This document shows positions 6,691 through 46,571 of a DNA stretch of 64,000 bases, one piece after another; the stretch's first letter is position 1; every line of letters begins with the position of its first letter. The stretch lies in the NCBI GenBank assembly GCA_003024785.1, contig PUQB01000051.1, positions 160,819 to 224,818 of the forward strand. The letters are read 5' to 3'. A model generated the notes under the pieces. It ran no database searches. It saw only the letters and a list, made by a program, of their open reading frames with translations, and was not told the origin of the DNA. Origin of the DNA: Selaginella tamariscina. Lineage: Eukaryota; Streptophyta; Lycopodiopsida; Selaginellales; Selaginellaceae. A program made the translations under genes and the position numbers.

Positions 6691-6739
<49 letters not shown>

Positions 6740-7672
6740 TTTACTGTACAGATGCTTTCTATCGTGAGCATGATACTCTGGAGCTACCAGGTGTGATACC
6801 AGTTCACCCCTTAGAATTGCCCCAATTTGCGTTCTCATCAGAGTTTGCTGGTTACAAGGAGAGATATGAGGAGCAGAGTGCAACATCTAGGAAAGCACCT
6901 TGGCTCTTTATCAACACTTGCGAAACGCTAGAGCAAGAAGAGCTAGAGTATCTAAGACAACAGGGTTTCAGAAACCTGATGCCAGTTGCTCCACTTTTAC
7001 CGGCCAGCTTTATAGAAGAAGAGCAACCACATAACTCCAAGCTTATAACAAGTTCCCTATGGGAACAAGACTACAGGTGCACACAGTGGCTAGATAAGCA
7101 GAGTCCTAGTTCGGTTCTCTACATTTCTTTTGGAAGTATTGCCAGCATGAAATTCTCAGACGTGGACATTCTCTTCAAAGGTCTGGTAAGATCTCAAGTT
7201 AAGTTTCTGTGGGTGCTACGTAAAGACTTGATCCAGGGAACGACAGAAGAAGAATTTCAAGCATTTCTCAGTAAGGCTGAAAGCTCTAGCGGTTGGTGGT
7301 TCATTGGGCATCGCAGCTTGGGATACTGAAACACGTTGCAGTACGTGCTTTTCTTACGCATTGCGGCTGGAACTCGACGTTTGAGAGCATTTGTGCTGGG
7401 TGCCAATGATATGTTGGCCACGTTTTGCAGACCAGAAGATGAATGCAAGGTACGTTTCAGATGTTTGGAAAGTTGGTGTGAAACTCAAACGGGTGGTGAG
7501 CCCTGTTTCGGAGGATGAGGTTGAGAGAATTGTAGTGGATATGATGAGCGGCGAGCAAGGGGAGCTTATAAAGGAAAGAGCTATGAAGCTATCTGTTGCA
7601 TGCAAGAAGGAATTCGCAAAAAAAGGACTGCAGTTATTTGTTAGTGAGCTTAAAAATTATATATCTAAGTGA
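6208..7672 (+). pseudogene. UDP-glycosyltransferase (family 1), copy A, frameshifted
   Basis: Family-1 UGTs transfer a sugar from a UDP-sugar to small acceptors in the cytosol. Exon 1 starts at ATG 6,208 (MDRQLHAVVLPYPGQGHINP, the usual N-terminal motif) and ends near 6,688. A short intron of CT and TA repeats follows, ending in TTTTACTGTACAG at about 6,752. Exon 2 runs to the stop at 7,672 and holds the YISFGS strand and the PSPG region (7,300-7,450), which spans several frames. Against copy B (19,822-21,274), this copy has lost single bases near 6,398, 6,436, 7,292 and in the G run near 7,400, and has a 2-base change near 6,526. The losses are mostly in homopolymers, so assembly error is an alternative to decay. 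Confidence 0.85.
6692..6745 (+). repeat. (CT)n(TA)n microsatellite inside the UGT intron
   Basis: A long CT run followed by TATATATATA starts four to six bases after the 5' splice site of the UGT intron and fills almost all of it. The equivalent intron in copy B (20,743-20,794) has a shorter run. Confidence 0.85.
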
Positions 7673-7689: not shown

Positions 7690-9380
7690 CCGTCCCAGAG
7701 CAAGTGAATAGGTCAACTCTTCTCACCATTTACATATCTTATGTATTTATTTATAAGACTTACGTGATGCAATAAAAGGTTGCAAATTTCTAGACTATGT
7801 CAAAATATGTGTGCGAGGAGCTATTGCACAGTAAAAGATGTACATTATACATTGCATGTCTTAAACCGTTAGGCTATATTTACTATGCTTGTGGTAAAAA
7901 GTAAATTAGTTTTGTTCTTTTCCACATTTTCATCAGTGAAGGATTTGGAAGGCCATTCTTGAGCGTTAAACGCGGTACGGTGAATGGATTTTCATTGTAT
8001 GGTATTATACTTAAACAATATTATATATAGTATAATATATATATTTGAATTTATATCTTTTGAATCTCAAACCTTTCTAAACTCTACCAATCCTGACTCT
8101 AAGTTAATACACATATTTCAAGTTGAGAGTAGCCGAATAAAATAAAAATGAAAAACGATGCACCTGTATATACTGCATCCGTGGATGCCTGCCTTCCACA
8201 TACATGTTGTGGTTATTTGTATGTTTGAATGTATCTCATGAATGACGTGTGTGCACGTTTTTATTTTGATAACAAACAAGCGTATACTAGACGGCACATA
8301 TTTGTGTGAAAATGCTTATGTGACTGAGTCCCAACGAAAAGGAGGCATAGGCCTAAAATATATCAAAATTTTCATTAAATATTTCTTGGTGGGCAAAATT
8401 TCAATATTCTTGTTGGGAAATGAATATTCTTGTTGGGGAAAAGAATACTTTATGGTCAACACTATATTATTCAAAGAATATTCTTTCATTATATGAGAAC
8501 ATTTTGCATTATTGTTGAAAATTAAGTTATTATATAAATTACACAAGAAAATATGCACATATTCATTGAGACAGCCACTTAATTACATGCTCCTTTTCTT
8601 CCTCAACATTGTAGCAATCCTCGATCCTCTCTACGTTGTTTCTACAATGATTGTTGAGTTCATATCTCCTCAACTCGGCATTATTTGCTATTCTATCCTT
8701 GCTAACTCAAAAGATTTCTTTGTACTTAAAATGTTTCTGCCAAGGTGTATAGATGCAACAAGCAATAATGTCCCCAATCCTATATCTCAAATGAGGTCAC
8801 ATTAACCGCTCAATTATAAGTTGCATAAGCCAAACACTCTTCAGTTGTATCAAAAGCCTGTAATGTTCAAGTTTAAGTTAATGTGTAACATTATAACATA
8901 TTATCTTATCATGATTCTTGGTAATAATTGGGATTATCCACTAGGATGGTAATGCCTAATTTAAGTGGATTCACTATTGTTAAATTTCCAAAAACTTGAA
9001 ACATGAGCACCACCAGCAGAAATTCTTGAAGAAGGTAATAAGTAAATGAGAATGAAAAAAAAGAACTAAGTAGTACCTTCATTTTATGTATATAATATGT
9101 TGCAGTAAGTTCCAAGTCAATAACTTCAACTACCTACACAACTTAAGAAATCAAAGTGATTGTAACAAACACCACCATAAAACCTTGTGTTGCCAAGTGC
9201 ATGCATGTGAATTAGAGGGCCTCATCAAACCTTACTCAATTAAGGTGCAATAGGTTGTTATTCAAAGTATATGTCACATGGTCCAAGTTGGTAAAAAGGT
9301 CCAAGATCACTAAATTGAAGCTAAATTCATCTACCTTCTCTTAGAATTGTGTTTGTGAATCTGGGGTGCGAGGATCCTCA
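7690..9380. other. Downstream part of block U, no confident gene
   Basis: Shared with 18,170-19,800 in reverse. It holds several GAATATTCTT-like motifs near 8,400-8,490 and a hydrophobic frame (8,570-8,800) whose counterpart in copy B (18,680-18,892) has a different sequence after about 20 residues. That lack of conservation argues against a real protein. A possible short exon (about 18 codons, with LELTATYYI) lies on the minus strand near 9,075-9,135. Confidence 0.5.
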
Positions 9381-18170: not shown

Positions 18171-19821
18171 TTCTGAGAGGAGGCAGGTGAGTTTAGCTTC
18201 AATTAGTCATGTTGGACCTTCCTACCAATTTGGACCTTGTGACAAACAACAGCCTATTGCACCTTGATCAAGTAAGGTTTGATGAGGCCCTCTAGTTCAC
18301 AGGCATGCACTTGGCAACACAAGGTTTCATGGTGGTGTTTATTACAATCACTATGATCCCTTGAGTTGTGTAGGCAGCTAAAGTTATTAATTTGGAACTT
18401 GCCGCAACATATTATGTTTATTGTGGATGAGATTGACATAAAATAAAGGTACTACATAGTTCTTTTTTCATTCTCGTTTACTTATTATCTTCTCCAAGAA
18501 TTTCTGCTGGTAGTGCTCATGTTTCAAACTTTTAAAAACTCGACAATAGTGAATCCACTTTAAATTAAGCATCCTTGTGGATAATTACTAAGAATCATAA
18601 TAAGATAATATGCTCTAATGTTGTTACAATCGAAGTGTGTTTGGCTTATGCAACTTGTAATTGAGTGGCTGACATGACCTCATTTGAGATATAAAGATTG
18701 GGGACATATCATTGCTTGTTGCATCTGTAGACCTTGGCAGAAACATTTTAAGTAAGCAAAGATAGCCAACACCAAAATAGTAGGCGACGTCAAGTTAAGG
18801 AGATATGAATTCAGCGTGAACAACATAGCGAGGATAAGGATTGCTACAATGTTGAGGAAGAAAAGGAGCATGTAATTAGATGGTCGTCTCAATGAATATG
18901 TGCATATTTCTTATGTAATCTATATAATAACTTAATTTTCAAATGTTCTCATATATATTTGAATAATGAAAGAATATTCTTTGAGTAATATAGTGTTGAC
19001 CATAAAATATTCTTTTCCCCACGAGAATATTCATTTCATCACTTTTGAAATTTTGCCCACCGATAAATATTTGTTGAAAATTTTGGGCCTATGCCTCCTT
19101 TTTGTCGGGACTCAGTCAAGTAAGCATTTTCACACAAATATGTGCCGTCTCGTATACGCTTGCTTGTTTTCAAAATAAAAACGTACACACGCGTCATTCA
19201 TGAGATACATTCAAACATACAAATAACCACATATATCCACGGATGCACTATATACAGGTGCATCGTTTTTCATTTTTATTTTATTCGGCTACTCTCAACT
19301 TGAAATATGTGTTAACTTAGAGTCAGGATTGGTAGAGTTTAGAGAGGTTTGAGATTCAAAAGATATAAATTCAAATAATATATTATATTATATATATATT
19401 GTTTATTTAACATTATTATCACTTCATTAGTATTTTAAACAGTATTCCTTAAAGTATAATACCATATAATGAAAATCCACTTGAGATGCATTCACCGTAC
19501 CGCGTTTAAGACTCAAGAGTGGCCTTTCAAATCCTTCACTGATTAAAATATGTGGAAAAGAACAAAACTAATTTACTTTTTACCACAAGCATAGTAAATA
19601 TAGCCCAACAGTTTAAGACATGCAATGTATAATGTACATCCTTTACTATGTGTGTGTGCAATAGCTCCACGCAGACATATTTTAACGTAGTCTAGAATTC
19701 TATTGCATCACGTAAGTCTTATAAATAAATACATAAGATATGTAAATGGTGAGAAGAGTTGACCTATTCACTTGCTCTGGGACGTAATAAAACAACAGGT
19801 TTAAGGCGTGGTTATTAGGCA

Positions 19822-21274
19822 TCACTTAGATATATAATTTTTAAGCTCACTAACAAATAACTGCAGTCTTTTTTTTGCGAATTCCTTCTTGCATGCAACA
19901 GATAGCTTCGTAGCTCTTTCCTTTATAAGCTCCCCTTGCTCGCCCCTCATCATATCCACTACAATTCTCTCAACCTCATCCTCCGAAACAGGGCTCACCA
20001 CCCGTTTGAGTTTCACACCAACTTTCCAAACATCTGAAACGTACCTTGCATTCATCTTCTGGTCTGCAAACCGTGGCCAACATATCATTGGCACCCCAGC
20101 ACAAATGCTCTCAAACGTCGAGTTCCAGCCGCAATGCGTAAGAAAAGCACGTACTGCAACGTGTTTCAGTATCCCAAGCTGCGATGCCCAATGAACCACC
20201 AAACCGCTAGAGCTTTCAGCCTTACTGAGAAAAGCTTGAAATTCTTCTTCTGTCGTTCCCTGGATCAAGTCCTTACGTAGCACCCACAGAAACTTAACTT
20301 GAGATCTTACCAGACCTTTCAAGAGAATGTCCACGTCTGAGAATTTCATGCTGGCAATACTTCCAAAAGAAATGTAGAGAACCGAACTAGGACTCTGCTT
20401 ATCTAGCCACTGTGTGCACTTGTAGTCTTGTTCCCATAGGGAACTTGTTATAAGCTTGGAGTTATGTGGTTGCTCTTCTTCTATAAAGCTGGCCGGTAAG
20501 AGTGGAGCAACTGGCATCAGGTTTCTGAAACCCTGTGTCTTAGATACTCTAGCTCTTCTTGCTCTAGCGTTTCGCAAGTGTTGATAAAGAGCCAAGGTGC
20601 TTTCCTAGATGTTGCACTCTGCTCCTCATATCTCTCCTTGTAACCAGCAGACTCTGATGAGAACGCAAATTGGGGCAATTCTAAGGGGTGAACTGGTATC
20701 ACGCCTGGTAGCTCCAGAGTATCATGCTCACGATAGAAAGCATCTGTACAGTAAAATATATGAGTGAGAGAGAGAGAGAAGAGAGAGAACGACCTTGATC
20801 TAATGGGAAAATGCCTTGTTTAATCATTAGAGGAGCGTGGAGGCGAGTTACAAATCCAGAAGCTGCTAACGGGTAGTAAGGCACCCATGGGATGCCAAAA
20901 CTCTGTGCTGTTTCTGAAACCCAAGTCAGAATAACATCTGAAACAACACAAGACACTGGCATGCCTCGGACTAATCCATGCATGAGCTCTGCAAATGGTT
21001 TCTCTAACTGCTTGATTCCTTCAACAAACTGGAACATGCCAGTCATGCTGCGTGGGGGTAAAGCATCATCCGCAATTGACACCATTCGAATGTTGTTTGG
21101 GTTCTCAACTCCTTGCTTGGACCATGCATCCAAAATAGAATTGTAGTTTCCTCTTGTTGTCACAAACGTAACTAGGAAGCCCATGGAAGACAGTTGGAGG
21201 GAGAGCTGCATAAGCGGATTGATGTGGCCTTGCCCAGGGTATGGGAGCACAACTGCATGCAACTGCCTATCCAT
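19822..21274 (-). CDS. UDP-glycosyltransferase (family 1), copy B, nearly whole
   Basis: Family-1 UGTs glycosylate small molecules such as phenolics, hormones and terpenoids in the cytosol. Exon 1 runs 21,274-20,794, starting with ATG and the PYPGQGHINP motif; the catalytic-type His lies in that motif. The intron (20,793-20,744) has GA/CT repeats. Exon 2 runs 20,743-19,822. It carries YISFGS, then the full PSPG box: [20 protein letters not shown] begins it, and [15 protein letters not shown] closes it with a terminal Gln, as in UDP-glucose-preferring enzymes. The predicted length is about 467 residues, typical of the family. A single missing base near 20,538 (AGACACAGG against AGACAACAGG in copy A) breaks the frame. 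With copy A as guide this base may be an assembly error. Acceptor substrate cannot be read from sequence. Confidence 0.9.
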
Positions 21275-29839: not shown

Positions 29840-30787
29840 TCAGGAATGGTCGGGACTTCGTTACGGCTCTAAAACAATGTACCGAGACAAGAGAGACTTG
29901 GAAGGCGGGAAAATAGCACACATGGAAGCAGTTGCATCAGGCTGCCACACGGATAAGTACGTAGCTTCTGCCTTGATTACAATGTACAGAAAATGTATGA
30001 GCATGCCACTCGCAAGGGAAGTCTTCGATGGGATGGTTTACAAAGGTGCACTCTGAGATACGTGGAGAATGGTGAGAGATTGACAGCTCTAGAGCTGTTT
30101 ACATGCATGGACTGCAAACCGACTCATATCACATATCTTGCTGCTCTCTCAAGGCGTGTGGAAGCTTGGCCGCTGAGAGAGAGTTACCTAGAGAAGCTTG
30201 TATACAGAACGGAATAGCCATTCACCAACAGGTAACTCTCTCTCTCTCTCTTCATATATATACACGTATACATACATATAGGTAAAGGAGTTGGTATTGA
30301 TTCGGATGTAGCTGTTGCGAACGCTCTGGTGGACATGTATGGGAAATGTGGGAACATGCAACTTTCTTAGGAAGTCTTCGATAAGATGGTACATAAGAAT
30401 GTTGTTACTTGGACCTGTCTCCTTCTGGGACACGTAAAACTGGGTGAATGTACAGTGGCCATGGAGTTATTTGCTAGAATGGACTGTAAACCAGACTCTC
30501 TTACATATGTTGCTGCACTCAAGACATAGCACGGTCGGAGAAGCAACTTTGTCTTGACAAGGGAACTGCTATTCATGAAAAGATTAAGGAGTGTGGATTC
30601 GCTTGTTGCAGATACTCTTGTGGAAATGTATAGTAAGTGTGGACAAGTCTTTGAGAGAATGTCTCATAGTGACGTAGTTGTGTGAAAGTGCTTTGGTGGA
30701 CATGTATAGTAAATATGGAGTTTGCTCGTGAAGCTTTCAAGGGGATGATACGTAAAGATGTGGTTACTGGAACTGTCTCATTCTAGG
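29840..30787 (+). pseudogene. PPR (PLS-type) gene, right arm, part 1
   Basis: Collinear reverse copy of 24,800-25,830. It shows FVTALKQCTETRE, GCHTDKYVASALITMYRKCM with REVFDGMVYK, then MDCKPTHITYLAAL. After the CT-repeat intron (from about 30,232) come ALVDMYGKCGNMQLS, NVVTWTCLLLGHVK and MDCKPDSLTYVAALK. The segment breaks at 30,787, exactly where the large transposon starts, and resumes at 46,021. Several small frameshifts against the left arm are present in both directions. Confidence 0.8.
30780..30787 (+). repeat. Target-site duplication of the large transposon, left
   Basis: ATTCTAGG here is repeated at 46,021-46,028. A ninth base (C) before it also matches. The uninterrupted left PPR arm (near 24,777) has a single copy, which confirms an insertion with an 8 or 9 bp target duplication. 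Confidence 0.85.
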
Positions 30788-30905
30788 GGGTTTGACATTT
30801 CCTCGAGCGCAGTCTGCCGAGCGTACGGATTTCCGTCATACTGGAATATTCCATTCCGTACAGAATATTCGTTTTCATATAAAGAATATTCTGGTGCGGC
30901 GGGCG
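30788..30905 (+). repeat. Left terminal and sub-terminal region of the transposon
   Basis: Begins GGGTTTGAC and includes CGAGCGCAG at 30,803-30,811. The palindrome GAATATTC occurs at 30,844, 30,863 and 30,884, and the 16-mer CCGTACAGAATATTCG at 30,856-30,871 recurs in the same orientation at 45,906-45,921. These are good candidates for transposase-binding sites. Confidence 0.75.
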
Positions 30906-31084
30906 GGCAATCATGAATGTGTCAAAGTTTCACAAATTTGGGGGTTAATCTGACATATATATTTAATATTTATATTTATATTTATGTTTTTTTTTTTTAA
31001 TATTTATTATTTATAACTATAATTATATTTTTATATAAATACCGCATCAAACTAAATAAAAATTACAATAAAAACATAACTCAA

Positions 31085-34000
31085 TCATGAAGACTTGTTT
31101 CCACCAGCCAGTGCCTCGTCGTTAATGAATGCATTGTTACGGTGTCGTGAACGTTTCTCCAAAATCTGTCTGTTGTAAATTTCGAACTCTTCAACCATTT
31201 TCTTTGCCATCTGATTAGCGTAGTCTGGTAGAACAATACTGAAAACATATTAAAGTTTAAAACCAAAGAAAATGATAAAACAAATCTCACTTATCATCTG
31301 ATGACTCGTATGATCTCTCTTCTGCTGACTCATCTGATGACTCGTCGTTGTGCTCCACGGACTTCTCCGTAACAACATCCTTGTCGTTTCGAGAAGGCGG
31401 ATCCTGGTCTCCATCGTTGTCGCTAGCCAAAGGCAAATCCTGTGCTTCTGTTTCCATGGCCCTCTTCCACTCATCAAAAGGAGTAATCATGGAAACAACT
31501 TGATCATCCCACCACCTTCAGTTGCTGTAACACTTGGAATGACCTTCCTGAAGACATCTCTGGCTGCTAAAACCAGATCCTTGTTGATGTCGATTCCATA
31601 ACCATGTCTCCCTGTGTGAAAAGCTGCAAGAATACTAGCATCGGTTCCCACTGTTAGATCCACGATAGTTCCACCAGGCTTTGTGAGCTTCTCCACTAGT
31701 ATCGCAAACAACTTGGGAGATTTCGGGCCAGTTGAAATCCTGAAAGTTACAATATTAGAACATGAGAAATAACAAACAACATTATACCATGGGAGCTGGA
31801 AATCTTCTGGCTCATCAAAAAGAAGAGTGTAGCGAGTGTCCAAGATCTCCTTGTTCTTGGCAACCTTAGAGTAGGGGGAACCAAAAATACACATGGCAAT
31901 GATGCTTTCCTGAAAAAATAAACATTAAAAATGACATTCTCAAAAAGAAGAATTACCTTTCTAGAGAAACGGTATCCCCATGACTTTGTCGTGTGCACAT
32001 AATTCATCTGCAGAAACTTTAGCTTGCAAGTTTCTGCAGTGTTCTTCAAAGCTAGAACATCATCCGGTAGCACAAACACTACCACATGGCCAGCTCTGTC
32101 TAATATCCCGAAAGCAAGGTTCACCAAGTTCTTCAACAAAGCATCTGAGAACTTCGTGTATTGATCCACCATCCCGCCTGCCTCAGCAACGCATCCGGTA
32201 GGCGGGTCGATGACAACGAGATCAACAGCTCCCTGGATGCATTTTGGTGGAGGCTTCACACCAAACACATGAATAGTCCAACTTGACTTGTGACTCATGA
32301 TCCAATCCTCAAGCTCCTTCAATCCTGACGGAAAAGGCCTTCCGGCTTTGAAGTACTGGACTGCAAGGTTCTGTCAAGCCACGATCCAGGAACCAGGAAG
32401 AGAACAGGATTCCAAGGACATGAAGGCTTGACTCAGGAACAGGACCGAGAGCAGGACAGGAACTAGGAATAGGAACAGGACGGATCTAGGAGCAAGACAG
32501 GATCAGGATAGGATCCGGGAGCAAGACAGGAAAGCACAGGATAGGATCCGGGAGCAAACAGGAACAGGACAGGATCCGGAGCAGGACAGGATCCAGGAAC
32601 AGGACAGGAAATAGGAGCGAGACAGGAACAGGACAAGAAACAAGACAAGACAAGATTGATCGTAGTAAGACTGGTGTTGATAGTAACTGATTGTACAACA
32701 ATTAGGTCGGAGCTTTTATGCTCACAACTCCAAGAGCTAATCTAGGCATGCATGCAAAAGTGGTTGCATGCATGCAAAAGTGATTGCATGCATGCAGAGG
32801 CTAAGATGAGTCCACATGTCCCTTATCCTAGGCATATCCTGGCATATCCTGTAGGAATATCCTGTAGGAATATCCTGCAACCGAATCCTGTGTCCGGAAT
32901 CCTGGTAGGAATATCCTGCAACCCATATCCTGTATCCGGAATCCTGTAGGAAAGTCCTGCAACCCATGTCCTGTATCCGGAATCCTGTATTCTGTATCGG
33001 GTCGTGACAGCACCTCCTCCCTAAAGACGAGTTCCACGAGTCTTGGGACCTGGTTTAGCAGGATAATGCCGATGGAAGGCAGCAACCTTGGAAGAAGCAT
33101 GGAGTAAGTTGGATGCAGGTTCCCAAGTGCGATCAGTAGGCAGGTACCCTTTCCAATCCACCAAGTATTGGAGTTGGTGACGATGAAGACGAGAGTCAAG
33201 GATGGCTGCGACTTCGTACTCAGGTTCGTGTCAATGACCACAGGGGGGGAGGAGAAGAAACACGACCGGGAAGAGAAGAAGGATGATACGGCTCCAACAA
33301 AGAGGTGTGAAACACAGGATGAAGTTTCACCGTGGATGGTAACTCGAGTCGGAAAGCTACAGGATTTACCTCCGCCACGATCCTATAAGGGCCCAATCGT
33401 TGAAAATCCAACTTAGAAGAAGGCCTGTTGGTGCGAATGTGTCGACGAAGAAGCCACACGAGATCACCAATCTTGTATGCAGGTGCCGGCTGACGGTGAG
33501 CATCAGCATGATGCTTGTATCGTTCCTGTGCCTGTTGAAGATGAACCTGGAGATCATCCTGTACCTGCCGAAGATGCTGAAGACGATCCTGTACTGCAGG
33601 AGCGGAAGAAGGAGAAGCGGGAGGAGCAAAGTCAAAACGTGGATGGTGGCCTGTAAGAGCAAAGAAAGGTGTCTGTCCTGTAGATGCGTGGATGGAGTTG
33701 TTGTAGGCAAACTCCGCCATTGGAAGGAGGTCCAACCAGTTGTCCTGCTGGTAACTGATGAAGCAACGAAGATACTGTTCTAAGGTCTGAATTGTGCGTT
33801 CGGACTGCCCATCGGTTTGTGGGTGATATCCTGAAGAAAGATCCGCTTTGACCTGTAGACTCCGAAGAAGCTCTCGCCAAAACTTGGACATGAATTGTGG
33901 ACCTCGATCGGAAACAATGCTCTCAGGAAGACCATGATGTCGGAACACCTCGCGGATCACCAACTCGGCAGTTGTCTGACCTGTAGCTGTCTTGTTGCAG

Positions 34001-37000
34001 GGTAGGAAATGAGCCTGCTTGGTGAAACGGTCAACCACCACAAGAACTGCATCAAATCCACGAGAAGGAGGAAGATCTGTGAGGAAATCCATAGAAATGG
34101 ATCTCCAAGGAGCAGACGGAACAGGAAGAGGACGAAGAAGACCAGAGGGTGCATGATGAGGCATCTTCGACCTGCTACAAGTGTCACAACTCCGTACAAA
34201 CCTCTCCACAAAACCTCGCAACCCAGGCCACCAATAGTTGCGAGTCACCAACTCCACTGTCTTGGCCACACCAAAATGTCCTGTAGCCGGGGTATCATGA
34301 CAATCCTGTACCACACGAGTCCTGGAAATACCAACAGGAACGTACAGGAGACCTTCCCGGTACAGGAGTCCATCCTGTATGGTGAACAGGTTGTAGTCTG
34401 GACGGGAACTGGAGGAAGAGGAACTTGCAACGTCAGGATGAATGTGTGAGAACACATTCTTTGCCAAGTCGTCTGTAGCCAACTGCGAACGGACGTCCTG
34501 TAGGAGTGTTGAATTTGCTGGAGCCTGATGAACCTGCAGTGCCGCAAGCCGGAAACGATCAGGACCCAACAACACTTGCCTTTGACGTCAAATGCAGGAT
34601 CGCCCGGGCTTGGTGCAAGGTAAGAGCGCCTAGACAATGCGTCCGCCTTGCCATTCCGAAAGCCGGGCCTGTAGACGATGACGAAGTCAAAACGTGATAG
34701 GAACTCTGCCCACCTAGCCTGTCGCCGACTGAGGACCCGAGCCGTTTGAAAGTACTCCAGGTTCTTGTGATCCGTAAGAACTTGTACAGGATGTGCAGCA
34801 CCTTCCAGGAAATGCCGCCACTCCTCAAACGAATCCACAATGGCCTTGAGTTCCTTGTCATGAATCTCGTAGTTGATCTCCGCCGACAGGAACTTACGAG
34901 AGTGAAAAGCTACAGGATGAAGCAACTTGTCCTCTCCAACTTGCGATACGGATCCTACTGCAAAATCCGAGGCATCTGCTTCAATGAAGAAAGGATGAGA
35001 AGGGTCAGGATGTGCTAAAATCGGAGCTGTCGTGAAAACGTCCTTGAGTGTTGTGAACGCGTGTTCCGCCTTGTCGGACCAAGAGAAAAGTCCTGTGCGC
35101 TTGGTGAGTTCTGTGAGTGGAAGTACACGCTTGGAGAAGTCCTGTATGAACCGCCTGTAGAAGTTTGCAAAGCCAAGGAAACATTGTACATCTCGTACCG
35201 ACTTGGGCCTCTCCCACTCCACGATGGTCTTCACCTTGTGCATGTCCATGGAAACGCCAGCAGGAGAGACGATGTAGCCCAAGAACTCCACCGAATCCCT
35301 ATCGAAAAAACACTTCTCCAACTTCGCGTACAGGCCATGCTCGCGAAGCCGCTCTAAAACTAGTCGTACATGCTTGTCATGTGCCGCCTGGTCCTTGGAG
35401 AAAATCAAGATGTCGTCGAGGTAGATCACCACAAACTGGTCCAAGAAGTCACGGAAAATGTCGTTCACCATGTGTTGGAAACAGCTGGGGCATTGGTAAG
35501 GCCGAAAGGCATTACCGTGTACTCAAAATGTCCATACCTTGTACGAAAGGCAGTCTTCCACTCATCGCCGGGACGAATCCGTACAAGGTTGTAGGCTCCT
35601 CGTAAGTCGATCTTCGTGAACACCTTTGCTCCTCGCAGCCGATCGAGAAGTTCCGGGATCAATGGCAACGGGTACCGATTCCGAATGGTGACTTGATTCA
35701 AACCCCTGTAGTCCACAACCAAACGTAAACTCCCATCCTTCTTCTTGACAAAGAAGATAGGAGCTCCTGCAGGGGACTTTGAGTGACGAATGAAGCCGGA
35801 TGCCAAGTTGTCCTCGATGTACTGACGAAGAACCTCCAACTCTGTGGGTGACAATGCATAAATCGGTCCGAATGGTGGAGTCTTTCCTTCCGCAAGATCA
35901 ATAGGACAGTCGTAGGACCTGTGAACAGGAAGAACTGCAGCCTTGTGCTTGTCAAAAACGTCCTTAAAGTCGTGGTACTTGGATGGTAGGGAAGAAGGAG
36001 GAGAAGGAGAAGGAGAAGGAGAAAAAACAGGGGAGTCGGATACAGGAAAGGTAGAAGAGGACGTAGGAGTTACTTGAAAGGCAAAAAGGTGGAAGGGAGC
36101 AGGATCAGTGGCGAGTTCATGCATGGTAGTGGTAAGAACTCGGAGAGGAGAAGGAGGGAGCTGTGACTGAAAAAGAGGAAGGATCTTGGGGGATGGAACA
36201 GAAGCAGGGTAACAGAAAGAAGCAGGATTGGAAAAAACCTGTGTGGTGTTGATGAGTGTACAGGATTGGAAGAATCCTGTACAGGAGTCCGTGGTTGCGC
36301 AAGAGTGGAAGAAGCCTGCGAATGTGCTGACGAATCAACAGGAGGTGGATCCTGTTGAGGAGGAACCTTCGACACTGATACAGGATTGGAAGAACCCTGT
36401 ACAGGACACCGCAAACTTACAGGAGTGGAGAGAGCCTGCGGATGTGCTGAGGAACTGATATGAGGTGAATCCTGTCGAGGAGGAGTCTTCAACACTGGTA
36501 CAGGAACAGGCACGGTCAATCCTGTAGCTTGTACTGCCTCAGATACTAAGGATGTATCCTGCACGCAGGAAGGTACAGGATTGATCCTAGCTTGGAGAGG
36601 AAAACGTGAGCGTCCTAGACCTCCAGTCGATCTGCGGATTTGCAACAACGAACCATGGCATGCCCAAAATGATGGGAGTCGACCGAGTCTTGATCAAGTT
36701 GAAGGAAATTGAACAGTTGAATGTGCCATACCTGCAGGAGAGAGGTTCGGTAGCATGGGTAACTGCACCAGAAGCAATTAGACGCCCATCGGCCACCTCT
36801 ACAGGAACTGCACGCTTCAACTTCACCACCGAAATGCCATGTTGAGTTGCAAACGTGTCATCCATGAAGCATGCATTTGCACCAGTGTCTAACAAGGCAA
36901 ACTCCATGAGCTCTCGATTATTAAGATGAATGTGTACAGGAAACTTAAGTGATGGGATGGTATGAGCAGCACCAATGGAGCCTGCACCTACGTCCAACTT

Positions 37001-40000
37001 CGCGGCTCCTAGACGAAGTGGACATTGGAGTTTTCCGACTGAACTTCAGCTTCAACTTCACGCGTCTTGAAGTTCCTGGCTTTAATAGGACAATCTGCCA
37101 CCTTGTGTCCTGCTCCACCACAATACAAGCACAGGTTCTCACTGCGACGACGTTGCTTCTCAGCAGCGGAAAGAGAGCCACGCTTGGATTTCTCAACCTC
37201 CATAGGAACTACTCCAGAAGGTGGTGCAGGAACATGTACCACAGCTGCAGGATTGGTTTGCAGGAACTTGACGGGATCTTTCCTGACGACGCTCGAACAA
37301 ACGGTTGTCGCAACGAACAGCTTGTTGCATGATCTCCGCTAATGTTTGGGCATCCGGTAACGTAAGGAGAAGGTCCTTCACGTCGTCCCTCAACCCAAAA
37401 CGGAAGTGTTCGATCAATGCAGTCTCGTCCCATGGAATGTTCGTGCAAAGTTGCTGAAATTCGGATGCATAGACGGAAGCTGGTCGGGATCCTTGAGTGA
37501 GCTTCCGTAACTTCGTGCATGCAGAACGGTACTTATCAGGATCTCCAAAACAGGCTTCAAAGGCAGCCACGAAACCTTCAAAGTCTCCATCAATGGATCG
37601 TCACGCTCCAGCAAGGGGGCAACCCAAGCCCGTGGAGATCCACTTAGTAAGGATGCCAAAAGACCCACCTTTTGAGCATCAGTCGAGTAGCGCCGTGGTT
37701 GCATACGGATCAAGAGCCGGATCTGATTCAGGAAACCTTGGAAATCGGCACGATTACCACTGAACTTCTCTGGCATGCTAACCTTCGGCTCCGAAGAAAA
37801 GTTTGATGAAGAGGGAACCACCGATGCCTGGGAGAGAGCCTGCGCAGCAGCCTTGGAGGATGCATCAGCAGCTGCATGTGCCGCAGTGGTGGAACCTTGC
37901 AGGTCGGTGACCACTTGGCGCAAAGTGGCCAGCTCATGAAGTAGCATTTGGTGCTCGTGTTGAAAACGCTCAAAATCAGCCATGATCTAGGAAAGAAAAA
38001 AGGAGGAAAATGAAGGAAAGGAATCAAGAAAAAGGTAGCTGGAAAACGGAGAACTATGAAGCAGTTACTATCAAACTGTCAAGCCACGATCCAGGAACCA
38101 GGAAGGAACAGGATTCCAAGGACAGAAGGCTTGACTCAGGAACAGGACCGAGAGCAGGACAGGAACTAGGAATAGGAACAGGACGGATCTAGGAGCAAGA
38201 CAGGATCAGGATAGGATCCGGGAGCAAGACAGGAAAGCACAGGATAGGATCCGGGAGCAAAACCAGGAACAGACAGGATCCCGAGCAGGACAGGATCCAG
38301 CAGGACAGGAAACAGGAGCGAGACAGGAACAGGACAGGAAAACAGAACAAGACAAGATTGATCGTAGTAAGACTGGTGTTGATAGTAACTGATTGTACAA
38401 CAATTAGGTCGGAGCTTTTATGCTCACAACTCCAAGAGCTAATCTAGGCATGCATGCAAAAGTGGTTGCATGCATGCAAAAGTGATTGCATGCATGCAGA
38501 GGCTAAGATGAGTCCACATGTCCCTTATCCTCTAGGCTATCCTGTGGCATATCCTGTAGGAATATCCTGTAGGATATCCTGCAACCGAATCCTGTGTCCG
38601 GAATCCTGGTAGGAATATCCTGTAGGAAAATCCTGCAACCCATATCCTGTATCCGGAATCCTGTAGGAAAGTCCTGCAACCCATGTCCTGTATCCGGAAT
38701 CCTGTATTCTGTATCGGGTCGTGACAGGTTCTCTGAATCTGCATGAATGATTTCCCAGCTTCCATTTCCCTTCTCAGGCATCACCATCCTCAACATATCA
38801 TCTTCTTCCAATCCAACCGAGATGAAGGATGGGGCTGAAGAAGAAGCTTGTCCCTTGCTGACCTTGCTCGCCGATCTAGCATACCTGATATCCATCTTCA
38901 CATGGAGCTTCCTTGCAGCACTGTCGTTCTTCCATAATAGCTCTCGCCGATCATCCTTGTGTATCTTATAGCTGGCCATCTCCCATTCGGGACAGTCACC
39001 AGGAAGGAAATCCAGCCAGAAAGGACAGTGTTCCACTTCGTAATCACTGATATGACGTAACAACCGGCTCCACATGCTAGAATCCTTGGTAACATCCATC
39101 CACTCTTTGAAATCTTCAGGGAGTGCATCGTTTTTCCATTTTAAAAACCTGTAAAAATAGATAAAAATCTGTAAAGAAACAAAAAAAAAAACTTGCCTGA
39201 ATGCCATTCTTTTTGCAGATTTTCCAGCTCAAATAGTCGAGGAGGTGGAATTGTCGCACCGAACTCCTTGTTCTCGAGCATGTTCTGGTATATATCCAAC
39301 TTAATTTCATTGTGCATCTTCGTATACCATGCCATGAACTCCTTTACATGCTCGACCAAAAGCTCTTTAGTTGCCTCCGCGACCTGGCATGATAAAACGA
39401 ATAAAAATAAAAAATATAAATATTAAATTACCTGGAACCAGTAAGTAAAGATGTGCAAAAACTTGATGAAGTCCTTGTCAGGCCAGCCGGTGACACCTTC
39501 CTTCTTGTCTTTCTCCGTCATGTTCACCAACTTCTCAAGAACGCCACGTTCTTGAATGTGCACAAGCTTCCAAGGATATCAAACCTTGACGTTGGAAGGA
39601 AGCTGGGACTTCGCGAGCATTTGAAGCTTCTCTAGAGTTTTTGTTTCGTTGATGGTTGATAGTGATATCTGTGATCGCCTTGAACCAATCTTCACCGACC
39701 GCCGGATCAGCAATGGTGAGGAATTTGTTCATCCGAACTGTGAATGTCTTGTAAACGCTAGAGAGGATCTGAGATTCTGTCTGGTTTGGTTTTCTGTTCG
39801 CAAGTTTTGTAGCGATTTGTCGCTTCAGTTGATTCTGCAAAAGAAACCGAAAATCAAAAAACAGTCAAAAGAAGAAGAAAAGATTACCTCCCAAAAAATC
39901 TTCACCAATGTCGTCTTTGGATACTCGTACCAAACGTCTTCTTTTCTGTTCGATCTCCACACTTCCACAGCTTTTTCTATCTTCCTCCGGCATCCCGCGA

Positions 40001-40983
40001 AGAACATGATCGGTAGAAAGATCTGCAGACTTCACACAACAATTCCGTAAGAACTGCAAGGTGTGAATGATTGTTGTAGGAACCACACGAGCAGTTGCTC
40101 TGCAAAACAAAACAACATTTATTTAGTATTTAAATAATGAAACAAACAAGTCACTTACTCATTCAACCGATTGCAAGCAGCGATTAGTCTCTTCTCCTCT
40201 TGCACTGTGGATGCTATGAGTGTTGCACGTACACGCAAAAGTCCATTTCAAACCTGGCTCTTCAGCAAGCAAAGTGTTCAAAGCAACCCGACGATGATTC
40301 CCATCCCACCCAGAAACTTTGCATCTTTCAGAAATCGATACCACGCAGAAAATGCTGGCTTATGCAAATCTGCTTCAAACTCTCTATCGACTTGTGCTTC
40401 GACTCATTCCAACTTCGGCGTTCGTCTGCACTCAGCTGTGGTCCGAAAGATAAGGTGAACACTGACGTCTCCTGGTAAAATCCTTCAGCTCTAATCCATC
40501 CAACAAGGTCTTTCACGCCGTCCTTAGTGACATTCCTCAAATGTTGTGTGGGAGCAACCTGTGAACCGAGATACGCGGAGGCTCACCAAGCTCAACTGGA
40601 ACGTAGTGGTCTCGTCCTTGTAGCGATGTGTCAATATCCGTGTCATACCGAATAACAAGATTCCGAAGAAGCTTGGATGGAGCCTCAAGTGTCAGCCGCT
40701 CCGGAATTGCATATGATTCGGCAACTCCTTAGGAGCATCCAGTTCCTCTTCTTATTGAACATTTTACTACCAAGATCAATGTCCGGTACTTCCTCTGCAT
40801 TACCGTGTTCTGCAGAGCTTCCTGCGATCTCCCTATTTCTAGGCATCCATTCACTCACCACAGTATGTTCATCAATGACTTGCGAACTATCCACAGGTTC
40901 ATTGTTCGTCGGCATCATCTCTTCGTGTTGCAGTTGTTGCTTGGTGCCTCGGCTCCTTTCTTGCCACGAGGTTTTGGAGCCAT
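31085..40983 (-). CDS. Cargo gene: ParB-like plus class-beta DNA methyltransferase-like protein
   Basis: The start is ATG 40,983 ([10 protein letters not shown]) or, in the frame that continues, 40,918 (MMPTNNEP). A ParB-like part follows: [13 protein letters not shown] (about 40,580), [15 protein letters not shown], and DGNHRRVAL at 40,279-40,305, like the ParB/Srx 'DG-HR' core. Middle exons lie at 40,110-39,865, 39,840-39,570, 39,545-39,433, 39,385-39,197 and 39,147-38,732. The C-terminal part has VVIDPPTG (32,194-32,217), motif IV-like, followed by [15 protein letters not shown], motif X-like, and [20 protein letters not shown] (31,617-31,680), motif I-like. This is class-beta order of N6-adenine/N4-cytosine methyltransferases. 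An acidic Ser-rich tail and a last exon ending [17 protein letters not shown] finish at 31,085. The nested LTR element interrupts one exon, which continues in frame beyond it. T in place of the aromatic residue of DPP(Y/F/W) leaves catalysis uncertain. Two or more single-base shifts lie in the ParB part. Confidence 0.65.
32367..32371. repeat. TSD GGTTC of the nested LTR element (left)
   Basis: GGTTC at 32,367-32,371 matches GGTTC at 38,727-38,731, directly flanking the two LTRs, and shows a clean retrotransposon insertion into the cargo gene. Confidence 0.9.
32372..33009 (-). repeat. 3' LTR of the nested Ty3/gypsy element
   Basis: 638 bp, similar to 38,077-38,726. It contains short internal repeats of the type CAGGATCCGGGAGC and TGTAGGAATATCC, and three TGCATGCATGCA blocks. 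Confidence 0.93.
38077..38726 (-). repeat. 5' LTR of the nested Ty3/gypsy element
   Basis: 650 bp, paired with 32,372-33,009; followed by the GGTTC target duplication at 38,727-38,731. A primer-binding site could not be assigned with confidence. Confidence 0.93.
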
Positions 40984-41396
40984 ATCTGCAAAGCTTCTTG
41001 GACGATATGTTCCTGAAGTGTCAAAGTCTTGTATTTATCTCGCAGTCTCTTACTCTGCCTTTGTCTCATTCTGCAATTACAACAACTGATAAGTGTGTGT
41101 GTGTGAGTTGTTTTAATTTATGGACACACATTTACTATATATGTATACCTATCAATATATATAGACACACACGCACACACACACATATTTATACGTGTAA
41201 TGTTGTTTGTGTGTGTGCTCACTATATAATGTTCCTTGTGTATGTGTGTAATGTTGATTATGTGTGTGTGTGTGCAATGTTGTTTTGTGTTTTGTGATGT
41301 GTCTGTGTGAGAGAATATGGGTATATTCATACTCTTCACATGTATATACAGACGAAAAAGCATCATCTCGTATATACAAGTCTTAAATTCATATAC

Positions 41397-41401
<5 letters not shown>

Positions 41402-41476
<75 letters not shown>
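41402..41476. repeat. (TA)n array with central TATAATATAT, self-complementary
   Basis: About 75 bp of TA repeats, palindromic around TATTATAATA, which could extrude as a cruciform. Confidence 0.9.
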
Positions 41477-41480
<4 letters not shown>

Positions 41481-41629
41481 TCTTTTTAAGTATGTATTTA
41501 AATATATATATTATATATACACACACACATGTATACAAGTCTAATGTTGTATAATCATAATGTGGTACGTGTGTAAATGTTATTTATGTGTGGTGCGCAA
41601 AAAACACACACACCACACACACACACGGA

Positions 41630-41690
41630 TTTCCTGCCCGAATTGGCAGGAAATGTGTGTGTGTGTGTGTGTGTTTGCCGAAATCGGCAA
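41630..41690. promoter_or_regulatory. Paired perfect hairpins flanking a TG run
   Basis: TTTCCTGCC-CGAATT-GGCAGGAAA (41,630-41,653) is a 9-bp stem, and TTGCCGA-AA-TCGGCAA (41,675-41,690) a 7-bp stem, separated by (TG)n. They lie upstream of both divergent transposon genes. The function is unknown; a protein-binding or regulatory role is only inferred from position. Confidence 0.4.
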
Positions 41691-42454
41691 TAACTCATGC
41701 GTCGGAGTGTGTGTGCACACGCGCGTGCGTTTGTGAATACAAAGAAATCCTACTGAATTTGCACATACATCACAGAAATTACTATACACATATATAAGAT
41801 TTTACCTGTAGCCATGTCGCCGTGACGCTCACACTAGCCTCTTGTCGCCGCAAAAAAAAGAACAAAAGTGCCCTCTCTCAACAATGGAGAATGGAGAAGA
41901 AGAATGGGACCCTAACCTTTACCCTAAAATCTAACACTTAACCCTTTGACCCTTAACTATAAAACTGTGTTTAATTAAACCATACAACAGTATATATAAT
42001 ACTTACGATAAATAACTACTATATAAAAGGATACAAATACAAACACATATTTAAGTAAAAATTTGTATGTTAAAAAAACATATTATTATTAATTAAATAA
42101 ATATTCGTGTAAAAATATGTATTTTATAATGTCTACATTTGATAAAATACTGGATCAAATAACTATATAATTATAATAAATAAATTAACAGAATATAAAC
42201 AAGTCATAAATAAATATGTCAGATGAATGTAGATTAGACACACATTTATTTAAAAGACAATAAAGATTGCTCTATCTCTACGTGAAGTGCTATACTATAT
42301 TAGCATCTAAGATCTATACGTTTCCTTGAATTAAATATTCGCCCACGTTGAGTCATGATTGTGAATTTTTGAAATGGTAATATCCGATATTTACCAAAAG
42401 ATGATTAAGTAATGCTGTTGTTTTTCTGTCACGTTTGTGGTAACTGCTTGCAAA

Positions 42455-45400
42455 ATGGCCAGGATTGTTTACGGCAATTTGGATCACGATGTTCCTGTGA
42501 TAGATGGTGTTGGAATCATTCTTACTAATCAGATTAGAACGTTCTTTGGCATTTTTGATTGGCAAAGTGTTCGTCTTTTTAAACTTCTTCATGGGCAATC
42601 TGCTTTACAGATCGAAATAAACGAGGACCAAGATGCTGGAGGGAAGGATAATCCAGATATGTTTTGTTACCGGATGAAGGACCATTGTTTAAGCTTGTCG
42701 TTGCTTCTGACTCTGAATACTCAACGTTGAAGAACCTTTTCACTTCTAATACCTGCAAAAAGGGAAGAATTCTTATCGAGGGTTCCACGATCATTCATAC
42801 AAATGAATTGCCTATTGCGTATGATGGGGATGTCATTTTTGAGCTCCCTCCTTCCGAATACAAATACAAAGGAATGAATCGGAAAGAGGATGGACATACC
42901 TGGACAGCAGGAACGACCAGCAACTGGAATTTTCAAGCGAGGGTGTCCAGGAGCAAATGTGTTGGGAGCCTTTGCTGTATCAACCCGGACTGCCCTGCTT
43001 CTAAGGCAGGATTTCCGAACTGCACTAAATGGAAAGGATGTATTGTTTCCCCACCTTCAATCGACAAACTGGCAAAAGGATTGACATGTTTTTTCTGTAA
43101 AGAAAATCCATTGTGCCTTGAAGTTTGTCATGCTGTGGCGTTTTGCGTTTTCCCAGACGACATAACCAAGACTAGATTGTTTATCCACCAGGGAAAACAT
43201 TCACATCCAGTGGGTGATGGTGTTTCTGCATCGAACAAAGAAGAAATGCATATGGCGGTCCAGAATGCAACAGAAAGAACTCCCAGAGCTAGTCCAAGAG
43301 TCATCGAAATGGCAGCATGTAAAGATGCTATCTTTGGTTTCCTATTAGATAATTCTGAGCCTGGAAGTTGGGATAAGCTCATGGATCATTTGCAACCATT
43401 ATCAAACAATCGAAGGTACAATTAGAGTTTTACTTTGTGCTGAGCATTCTTTGATAATACCTTTGATGCAGAGTTCGTCAATGGGTAGCGTCCGCAAAAG
43501 AACTGCTGCTGAAATGCCAGAGAATATTGATGGATTATTGGAGCTGAAACGAAGGTTGTCTATCCCATTCATCCACGTGATTCACTATCCTGGGATGAAT
43601 TTCCGTGGTTCAGACGACCAGGCATTAGTTTTTAAGATGACGGTTTCAGGGCCAGGTTCTGGAATCGATTATGTAAGGATGTGCCAACCTCCTCTTGGCC
43701 CTTTGCAGAAGAGTTGGGTTCTACTTGATCACACACACCGTGTTGTTGATAAGTGGATCACTTGGCATTGCATGTTTACGACCCAAAGTAAGATGTTATC
43801 TTTTTGTTGTTTGCTTAACTTTTGATTATTTTATAGTGTGCGCCGATTATCCACCATTGCTTATGGTGACATGAAGAGACAAACGGCTGGAGCTGTGGAG
43901 AAGTTTTTCGTGCTATGTTGGATGTCTGTTCCGAGAAGGGAATCTACAATGTGCAGTTCGCTGGGTTTATGTCCGATGAAGCAGGAGCGATCTGGCAAGC
44001 AATTAGGAATGTGTTCTTTAATGGCCAAGAAATTCCTGGACGTGAACGGAGCTGTATCTTTCACTATGAACAAGCCATACAACGTGTGACAAGGAAGTGG
44101 GTCCCTCTTGAACATCAACAACAACATCTTCAACTTTTGAGATCATGGCCAACAGCCACATCAACAACTGATCGTGAAGAAATTGAAAATAATCTTTTCC
44201 GCTTTTGGAATGAAAATGTGAAGGATGTTGGAGTTATGCAGACGTGGTTTTCATGGTGGGAAAGACAGAATCATATTTCAAATGTTGTTCTTGAAAGCAT
44301 GCCGGAGAATGCTGCAAGGGTTGTGCCCATGACAAACCAGTCGGAGTCTGTTCACGGAAGATGGAGGAGGGCTAGAGATTCAAAATACATTTCATTGTAC
44401 CAAGCTACAATCCACGACCTGACTGAATCAGTGCGACAATGTGCTCTTGTGAAGGCTTTTAGAGATGGAAGGTATAGTGGTTCCGGGCCGACTTCAGAGG
44501 AGCTCTCAGCAAGGTTCGAGAGAAGAATGTCAAATGCTAACTCAACAACACCTACAGCAAAGGTTATCATCGACTTAGTTGAAGATGTTGCTCCATCAAG
44601 CATGCAGGATACTGCTTTTGTGGCTGCCACGAATGTTGAACATCGCACTGTGCAAAGAAATATGGGGTCAGAGGCTGAACGATCCCACCGACCGGACATC
44701 TTCTATAGTGAACAGGTTATTCCAACACAGTGTAGACGGAAGCGACGATTGGATTTTCAACTTGCAGAAGAACATGAAGAATATGTTCTGGTTGAAGAAC
44801 AAGATGTTACACCTGGACAATGGGCGATTAGAAGATGTGGTGAAAGAAGTTCTGTGAAATGTCTGGCAGGCTTTCCCTCTTCAGGAGGTCAGTGGAGTGC
44901 TTGTGACAAAAAGATCAGTCCTAGTGGTAATCGAGTGGCTGCTCCTTGTTTTTTGGAAGGATCAGATACAATGACAAAGAAACTGGTGAAGAATGCTTTC
45001 GCTCAAATGATGTATTTTTGTCCAACAAACATGCTTTGCAACAGACATCCAAGACCAACTATTGTTTCTCCGCCAGCTTCTACCTCGGTTTGGAAAGTTC
45101 AAGTGGGCACGAAGCTGATAGCAATGGAGATCAATGATCTGGCAAGATCAGGTTTTATGCTAGCTGGGCTTCCTTCAGCTCATGCAGGAGTGCCAGGTTT
45201 TTCAACACCTCATGTTCCTTCAGTTCCTGTTGGAGTCACTGGATTTTCAACACCCCCTGCAAATTTCGTGGACCTCCTGTTCCTGCAAGTGGTCGGCAAC
45301 AAGAACACCTTTAGGGATGTCTAAGAAACAACAGGTAAGTTTTGAAGCATGTTTGACGTTGGGAGCATATGGCAGAAGTTGACGTGGTTGATCTCCAACA

Positions 45401-45714
45401 TGCATTGCTTCAGAGTATGTGACAACGACCATACATCTGCTTGGGTTGTCATTTGTAGTGCACCATCTTGTTCATGCTCGGAGTTCTGCAATGGTCGTCA
45501 GTGGGTGCCTTACAAACATATGTATTTTGTTTACAAGCGTGTACTGGGAGCTGATCCTCGAGTTGTCAAGCATTTGCAACGTCGTACACTTGCACCCCGT
45601 GAACTAAGTTCTTTATTGATGCTACAAGGAACCTCCATCCTCCACCATCTATTTAGTGTGTTTGGTTTGTTTTCAAACAGCTTCGGTTTTATATTTGTTA
45701 TTTCAAACTTATAA
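42455..45714 (+). CDS. MULE-type transposase with Cys/His finger, DDE core and SWIM-like finger
   Basis: The transposase cuts and joins the element ends. The start is ATG 42,455 (MARIVYGNLDHDVPVI). Exon 1 runs to 43,415 and holds a Cys/His segment (CVGSLCCINPDCPAS ... CTKWKGC ... FIHQGKHSHP) of the WRKY-GCM1 kind found in MULE transposases. Exon 2 (43,472-43,787) has LLDHTHRVVDKW, probably the first catalytic Asp. Exon 3 (43,837-45,334) has MSDEAGAIW (second Asp), CIFHYEQAI (the C-x2-H element) and NQSESVHGRW (catalytic Glu), then a low-complexity linker. Exon 4 (45,376-45,714) has CSCSEF...VPYKHMYFVYKRVL, a SWIM finger with Tyr in place of the third Cys. Single-base losses near 42,664 (T run) and 43,905 (missing C), plus a shift in exon 2, break the frame. 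Donors and acceptors are canonical. Confidence 0.85.
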
Positions 45715-45821
45715 TTTTCAATATAAATTTTAATGGTAATTTTATGCTTAGCATATTTTTAAGTAATTTAACATATATTTTCTTTAAATACAACAAAAAT
45801 ATACTACTATATTTTGTATGC

Positions 45822-46020
45822 GGCCGCCGCACTAGAATATTCTAGAATATTCTTGAAAATTTTGGAAGGTCCAATTGTGTGTACACTTGGCAGTACGAAA
45901 AATTTCCGTACAGAATATTCGAGATATTTAGACAGAAATCGTACGGAACAACGGAATATTCAAGAATTCGGAAATCTAGGTCAATCTCGTTGACCTGCGC
46001 TCGAATTTCGCCGTGCCCCC
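45822..46020 (-). repeat. Right terminal and sub-terminal region of the transposon
   Basis: Ends ...CTGCGCTCGAATTTCGCCG then TGCCCCC. GAATATTC occurs at 45,835, 45,845, 45,913 and 45,954, and CCGTACAGAATATTCG at 45,906-45,921. GCGGCCGCCGCACTAG at 45,820-45,835 is the inverted counterpart of CTGGTGCGGCGGG on the left. Confidence 0.75.
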
Positions 46021-46571
46021 ATTCTAGGATATGTGAAATGTGGTTACTGGAACTGTCTCATTCTAGGATATGTGAAATGTGGTTAGTACCAGGTAGATAT
46101 GAACTTAGTCGTGAATATGAACTGTGAACTTACGGATTTCACATATGTTGCTGCACTCAAAGCGTGTGCAGGACTCATTGATGTAGTCACTGGGCGAAGG
46201 ATTCATGCAAGAGTTTGTGAGCTTGGACTTGAAGAAGATCAAGTATTAGCAACTGCTTTGGTAGACTTTTATGGCAAGTGTGGATGCATGAACACCGCTG
46301 TCCAGATAGAGAGGTGTGGAGTTCCTTGTTGGCAGGGTATAGCTCACTGGTGGACTCGTCCCAGGTGTTTAGTCTTGCTAGAAAGATTCAGGAATCTGGC
46401 TTGCGGATGGACGGCGTGATGTTCATCTGTATTCTGAGGACATGCAGTATTGCCGGCCGGGTAGAAGAGGGGATTATGTACTTTGAATCTATGTTAAGGT
46501 ATGGTGTTATTGAACACTATACTTGCATGGTTGATATGTTGGGGACTTATATAATTATTTCTGTAAAGTAA
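46021..46571 (+). pseudogene. PPR gene, right arm, part 2 (3' end)
   Basis: This is the continuation of the gene split at 30,787. It starts with the target duplication and then a 39-bp tandem duplication of the insertion region. It encodes DFTYVAALKACAGLI-like and GRRIHARVCELGLEEDQVLA segments, VDFYGKCGCMNTA, and in a second frame VWSSLLAGYS, ILRTCSIAGRVEEGIMYFES and GVIEHYTCMVDMLG, which is the start of the E-type C-terminal region of PLS-class PPR proteins. The frame stops at 46,571 in AT-rich DNA without a DYW domain. The left arm lacks this 3' part. Confidence 0.8.

Follow-up and report, generated by a model that had tools for sequence, protein, structure and literature searches.

Genes that join a ParB-like part to a DNA-methyltransferase-like domain are already known from algal transposons; published examples come from the 21.5-kb element Sola1-1_Ec32 of Ectocarpus and from transposons of green and red algae (PMC12477816). 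According to the published description, the accessory gene of Sola1-1_Ec32 is antisense to the transposase and encodes a protein of 1104 amino acids with a ParB-like and an N4C/N6A-type methyltransferase domain. Here we describe a transposon of the lycophyte Selaginella tamariscina, found at positions 30788-46019 of a 64,000-nucleotide stretch (the window) of contig PUQB01000051.1 (GCA_003024785.1, positions 160,819-224,818, forward strand). As in the alga, both domains are found in one protein (the ParB part being weakly supported), which has 1092 amino acids in intact copies and whose gene is antisense to the transposase inside one transposon. The two elements differ, as far as the published description goes, in the transposase (Sola1 versus Mutator-like), in the host (brown alga versus vascular plant) and in size (21.5 kb versus 8.9 kb). 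The gene pair is an old transposon module and not a one-off capture, since the same antisense pair is present in three transposon families, two of which (A and B) have accessory proteins only 28% identical, while between the second and the third (B and C) the accessory gene is under purifying selection.

Other described systems resemble particular features of this element. VANC, encoded by VANDAL21 of the Arabidopsis Mutator-like elements (MULEs), binds clustered motifs of its own family, with loss of methylation there (PMC5735166). Like the element described here, which is probably a MULE, VANDAL21 has an accessory protein and a short motif arrayed in the non-coding regions of its family, and VANC is the nearest functional precedent and a possible model; in the published account, however, its effect is that host DNA methylation is lost, and no methyltransferase function is ascribed to it. 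Bacterial-type amino-methyltransferases are also encountered in eukaryotes as host genes with reported modification, namely the N4CMT of bdelloid rotifers and a Marchantia 4mC (N4-methylcytosine) methyltransferase (PMC8885841), whereas the present gene is transposon-borne and encodes a putative enzyme. Beta-class adenine methyltransferases of bacteria (MboIIA, CcrM, DpnA, RsrI), phages and plasmids share with it the motif order, the S-adenosylmethionine (SAM)-binding motif and matches in profile and tblastn searches, but they carry the catalytic motif DPPY in place of DPPT or DLPN, and here the domain is joined to a ParB-like and a long middle part in a spliced plant gene.

An earlier reading based on the letters of the window (the sequence-only reading) had named no described plant element with this pair of genes. 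For land plants this still stands, as our literature search, mostly of titles and abstracts and therefore no proof of absence, returned no report of a transposon ParB-methyltransferase; as a claim about the kind of gene it has to yield to the published brown, red and green algal examples. The words 'methyltransferase' and 'Selaginella' do not occur in the accessible part of a MULE survey (PMC6446971), nor do 'methyltransferase', 'ParB' and 'Selaginella' in that of a 2026 review of plant transposon gene capture (PMC13317346). New within the literature searched are the occurrence in a vascular plant, the Mutator-like backbone, the terminal palindromes, and a catalytic motif without the usual aromatic residue (DPPT/DLPN).

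A gene pair shared by three transposon families

Same-genome searches covered the S. tamariscina assembly (1391 contigs, 300,702,823 bases). A DNA query taken from the transposase gave 139 candidates; the 40 that were scored comprised 39 matches at 99% identity besides the window copy. Twenty copies of this family (family A) were examined with their flanks, together with three of family B (L037-L039) and one of family C (L040). The sequence-only reading had proposed a eukaryotic DNA transposon with its own ParB-like and methyltransferase-like cargo, and had set the co-occurrence of the two genes between common ends as a test beforehand; both genes were found inside the same ends in 20/20 family A copies, in none of which was the Ty3/Gypsy retroelement of the window copy present. 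These copies measure 8.77-9.05 kb, and in 17 of the 20 the alignment reaches both ends within a base, while in L016, L021 and L028 it stops 47, 24 and 65 bp, respectively, before one end. Clear duplications of 8-9 bp, at unrelated sites, flank 14 of the 20; they are ambiguous in two (L025 and L026, one locus) and were left uncounted in L016, L021, L027 and L028, where none was found, the match lay some bases off, or an end was unreached. L025 and L026 show the same insertion with the same flanks on two contigs and are probably two haplotypes; therefore, copy counts may include some allelic pairs.

The transposase gene is intact and identical (1037 amino acids, two introns) in at least 10, and the accessory gene (1092 amino acids) in at least 4, of the 20 family A copies; these counts are lower bounds, with splice patterns unmatched in 9 of the 20 accessory genes and 1 of the 20 transposases. 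In its intact form the accessory gene has seven introns of 47-59 nt, all GT-AG save one GC-AG. Family A moved recently, because the copies with an intact accessory gene are separated from the family majority by only 2-6 substitutions in 8.9 kb (2-3 in L013, L017 and L026, 6 in L015). Pairing of the genes extends beyond this sample: at 45 of the 54 listed places with an identical family A transposase, a match to the ParB region (75 such places were used) lies 2.5-5.5 kb upstream on the opposite strand, while two controls gave 0/54 each. On contigs C1079, C637, C150 and C449, copies of the ParB gene were seen in which one open frame (263-417 amino acids) continues through the position of intron 1; these could be a structural variant or derived copies.

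Family B was found with the transposase core (50% identity, 45 listed places). Its three sampled copies have transposases about 40% identical to that of family A, and each carries a homologous accessory gene in antisense. That of L037, related to the family A gene with a tblastn E value of 3e-51, splices to 1011 amino acids, and its five introns, matched by eye, all fall at family A intron places. At 32 of the 45 listed family B transposase places a match to PF01555 (N6_N4_Mtase, cut-off 26.7 bits) lies 4-8 kb upstream on the opposite strand, against 0/45 in each of two controls, one on the same strand and one on the wrong side; this is a lower bound, since L038 was scored unpaired though its accessory gene is present. 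The single family C copy has the same gene pair in the same antisense layout. In the whole genome PF01555 gave 739 candidates, and 150 of the 150 scored exceed the cut-off, which, together with the presence of the gene in three families, argues against a single captured host gene, the other refuting case that the sequence-only reading had named. Two places (C1293:521691-521984 and C1016:101040-101213) score above families A-C, one of them covering more of the profile (119-220), and could belong to further transposon families or to a host gene.

The accessory proteins of families B and C share 539 identical residues in an alignment of 963. Over these 963 codons, differences affect 35% of first, 27% of second and 63% of third positions, and 73% of four-fold sites; the gene is under purifying selection between the two families. 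The SAM-binding half of the methyltransferase-like domain is the best-kept part (76% identity), compared with 48% in the half bearing motif IV.

The window copy and its two genes

The window copy is 15.2 kb long, and the sequence-only reading had placed this insertion correctly within a base; the transposon proper amounts to about 8.9 kb because positions 32372-38726 are a nested Ty3/Gypsy element. The other anatomical claims of that reading, a target-site duplication (9 bp, CATTCTAGG, on both sides), inverted ends, a plus-strand transposase and a long spliced gene on the minus strand, were likewise borne out. The main parts are:

30779-30787, no strand: left target-site duplication CATTCTAGG
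30788-46019, plus strand: whole two-gene family A transposon, split by the nested retroelement (20 other copies, 8.77-9.05 kb)
30803-30893, plus strand: left imperfect inverted end, aligned part
31085-41069, minus strand: ParB-like/methyltransferase-like gene (1092 amino acids and 7 introns in intact copies), disrupted in this copy by frameshifts, an early stop codon and the nested insertion
32372-38726, minus strand: Ty3/Gypsy long terminal repeat (LTR) retrotransposon, LTRs at 32372-33009 and 38077-38726, duplication GGTTC (5 bp)
42455-45656, plus strand: Mutator-like transposase gene (1037 amino acids and 2 introns in intact copies)
45911-46004, minus strand: right imperfect inverted end, aligned part
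46020-46028, no strand: right target-site duplication CATTCTAGG

The two genes are divergent, with starts in the middle of the element and transcription outwards, the transposase on the plus and the accessory gene on the minus strand. The inverted ends are imperfect: the two 220-bp ends gave a local alignment score of 41, whereas the best of 500 shuffles reached 27; a second control was less clean, as 1% of 494 random window pairs scored 34 or more, the best reaching 123. The host site is a remnant of a gene resembling those for pentatricopeptide repeat (PPR) proteins, as read by eye from the flanks, and a 39-bp host sequence is tandemly repeated on the right flank at the insertion point (30700-30787, 46020-46110), which makes the window duplication weak evidence if taken alone.

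Both genes of the window copy contain frame breaks, and the copy lies 69 substitutions from the family A majority. The 6.4-kb Ty3/Gypsy element, with reverse transcriptase, RNase H and integrase domains, is inserted inside the minus-strand gene, and its LTRs agree at 627 of 632 ungapped aligned bases. An eye count of the differences between the LTRs gave about 11 indels as against 5 substitutions; therefore, some of the frame breaks in the window may be long-read assembly indels and not decay. Rfam at gathering scores gave no match in the window.

The transposase was predicted to be Mutator-like from three features taken together, namely the target-site duplications, a DDE core read with a CxxH motif, and a SWIM-like end:

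43466-44410, plus strand: transposase DDE core with CIFH (CxxH) motif, Pfam MULE match below cut-off
45460-45550, plus strand: SWIM-like zinc-finger end, CxCx11CxH in intact copies, Pfam SWIM 8.9 bits, below cut-off

Motifs LLDHTH, MSDEA, CIFH, TNQSE and CSCSEFCNGRQWVPCKH were recognised by eye in intact copies. Duplications of 9 bp in the window and of 8-9 bp at the other copies fit the 8-11 bp given for MULEs in the accessible part of the survey (PMC6446971). Several profile results weigh against this part of the sequence-only reading. The Pfam MULE profile (PF10551, cut-off 27.6 bits) matched the family A core alone, with 15.5 bits (E 0.025, positions 2-96 of 99), about equal to the 15.1 bits of RNase_H_2; in the full-length family A transposase the MULE match was absent, and the composite core of families B and C gave neither a MULE nor a SWIM match in Pfam. 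Membership in the Mutator superfamily is thus not certain. Sola elements leave short (4 bp) duplications, and KDZ transposases have CxC zinc domains; placement in Sola1 or KDZ was rejected given the 8-9 bp duplications and the lack of any KDZ or CxC match in Pfam. No homolog of the transposase reading frame was found in a collection of 5.8 billion proteins (E up to 0.001).

The accessory protein has a ParB-like part, a long middle region and a methyltransferase-like domain of the beta class. In the window its conserved segments are:

40158-40701, minus strand: ParB-like region containing the DGNHR motif, split over several frames here
31957-32371, minus strand: methyltransferase exon with motif IV (DPPT)
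31788-31909, minus strand: methyltransferase middle exon
31496-31739, minus strand: methyltransferase exon with motifs X and I (SAM-binding), TVGTDAS in this copy

After removal of two GT-AG introns (47 and 48 nt), the methyltransferase-like domain of the window copy forms one frame of 262 amino acids. This half of the predicted cargo is supported: PF01555 was matched with 34.0 bits in family A and 37.9 in family B, and the motifs come in the order IV, then X and I, as in beta-class enzymes. A profile built from all three families matched the solved structures of MboIIA (E 2e-6), CcrM (5e-5) and DpnA (6e-5) in the SAM-binding half, and others more weakly; most of the profile and tblastn matches of the methyltransferase part are confined to that half. 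In families B and C the SAM motif, GSGTGSS, is normal; it is near normal in family A, where TVGTGAS was read in 19 of the 20 other copies (all in which it was readable), the TVGTDAS of the window being an amino-acid change. By these features the domain is a true relative of adenine methyltransferases.

The ParB assignment is weak. Its best Pfam match in family A is DndB, a profile that we take to be akin to ParB, with 19.8 bits for the part alone and 16.2 in the whole protein, below the cut-off of 29.1; no ParBc match was found in family A, no ParB-type Pfam match in B or C, and no solved structure was matched in a profile search with the ParB-like parts of all three families together. The DGxHR motif is a feature of the ParB superfamily, and WDGNHR is invariant across families A, B and C (VWDGNHR in 20/20 family A copies).

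Searches for distant relatives were negative within their respective scopes. Neither the read-through ParB-methyltransferase nor the intact methyltransferase domain had a homolog in the 5.8-billion protein collection (E up to 10); viral contigs scanned with the methyltransferase exon and with the A/B alignment, and prokaryote genomes scanned with the latter, yielded no relative, and NCBIfam gave matches only far below cut-off. In phages, tblastn with the ParB part pointed to 7 weak, unrelated-looking places. Two single-sequence AlphaFold2 models were uninformative, with predicted local distance difference test values of 41 and 44.

Terminal palindromes and the possible role of the accessory protein

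Near both ends of the element, copies of the palindrome GAATATTC are clustered; in the window they occupy:

30844-30891, no strand: left cluster (30844, 30863, 30884)
45835-45961, no strand: right cluster (45835, 45845, 45913, 45954)

The window copy has thus 3 on the left and 4 on the right. In L013, 8 are found within the two terminal 250-bp stretches and none in the inner 8.4 kb, and each of the 20 family A copies has 7-8 in the outermost 260 bp of its two ends taken together (2-4 on the left, 3-5 on the right) and none inside. In 5000 simulations under a first-order Markov model of the ends the mean number was 0.03 and the highest 2; as background, the 48.8 kb of the window outside the element contained 8, and 18.7 kb of flanking sequence contained 4. 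The ends hold far more of these palindromes than expected by chance, whereas their lack in the interior, where 1-2 would be expected, is unremarkable. The three family B copies have 2-3 on the left, 3 on the right and none inside, and in the family C copy they lie beyond the two genes, 3 at one side and 1 at the opposite side, these positions being relative to the genes and not to exact ends. The arrays travel with the gene pair. A repeated stretch with GAATATTC also occurs in the window (8422-8484, 18972-19032) near two copies of a UDP-glycosyltransferase gene (open reading frames 6682-7329 and 19822-20604); it seems to belong to a duplication and to have no connection with the ends of the transposon.

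The best explanation of these data as a whole, which we hold with moderate confidence, is a lycophyte Mutator-like transposon that encodes, in two divergently transcribed genes, a transposase and an accessory protein that would act at the palindromes of its own ends. The DDE/SWIM transposase moves the element and leaves the 8-9 bp duplications, as the anatomy and the copies show. The ParB-like part of the accessory protein might recognise arrays of a short palindrome at the element's own ends, for which GAATATTC is the candidate, and the SAM-binding domain might mark or shield the end DNA or keep host silencing off; a parallel may be proposed with VANC, which binds motif arrays of its own family. 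Such a self-marking or anti-silencing role, close to what the sequence-only reading had suggested (protection or marking of the DNA, or a modulation of silencing), is our inference. In a bolder form, which we regard as unlikely, land-plant transposons would run a bacterial-style modification of their own: a ParB-like reader, joined to a beta-class methyltransferase domain whose catalytic motif is unusual, would write a mark (N6-methyladenine, 4mC or other) on the GAATATTC arrays at both ends, and thereby tell self from non-self to the transposase or to host silencing, and the module would have persisted while at least three high-copy families diverged.

It is quite possible, though we put it forward tentatively, that the accessory protein is a pseudo-methyltransferase, which would bind the ends and SAM, methylate no base, and assist the transposase in transposition or in the pairing of the ends. 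Active enzymes have the motif IV consensus [DNS]PP[YFW]; the motif reads DPPT in 20/20 family A copies and DLPN in families B and C, and without the aromatic residue in three families methylation activity cannot be assumed. Base methylation by this protein may, indeed, not occur. Stronger conservation of the SAM-binding half than of the motif IV half between B and C points the same way, and a parallel is offered by METTL14, a partner protein that has a degenerate motif and no catalytic activity. On the other hand, none of the three families has lost the aspartate at the first or the proline at the third position of motif IV, and other residues could replace the aromatic one.

Somewhat more doubtful is the proposal that the palindromes are subterminal binding sites of the transposase, and that the ParB-like protein acts elsewhere, e.g. 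on host chromatin. Subterminal repeats bound by the transposase are common in plant DNA transposons, and the arrays are present in every family carrying either gene; GAATATTC may have this function. Palindromic recognition, however, suits ParB-like proteins. This objection is not decisive. Every family seen has both genes, and the accessory protein and the transposase are therefore indistinguishable as readers of GAATATTC.

It is highly improbable that the accessory gene is a host gene captured once, in the manner of Pack-MULEs, and carried passively. Pieces of host genes are often carried by MULEs, according to the accessible part of the survey (PMC6446971), but here the gene is full-length and has the same layout in three families whose accessory proteins have diverged widely (28% identity for A/B, 539/963 for B/C); moreover, the five family B introns lie at family A intron places, and selection between B and C is purifying. 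Bacterial contamination or a chimeric contig, to which the bacterial look of both domains might point, has a negligible probability and is refuted by spliced copies on many contigs (introns of 47-59 nt, GT-AG with one GC-AG), while this contig also carries plant-like UDP-glycosyltransferase genes and PPR-like sequence.

The results indicate that a transposon-borne DNA-methyltransferase-like module, reported until now from algae in the literature searched, is present also in a vascular plant, on another backbone, in many copies and with recent activity. The atypical catalytic motif raises the question of whether the protein has a changed chemistry or is a SAM-binding DNA binder. With GAATATTC as a candidate site and three divergent families as natural replicates, it becomes testable whether transposons write epigenetic marks on themselves.

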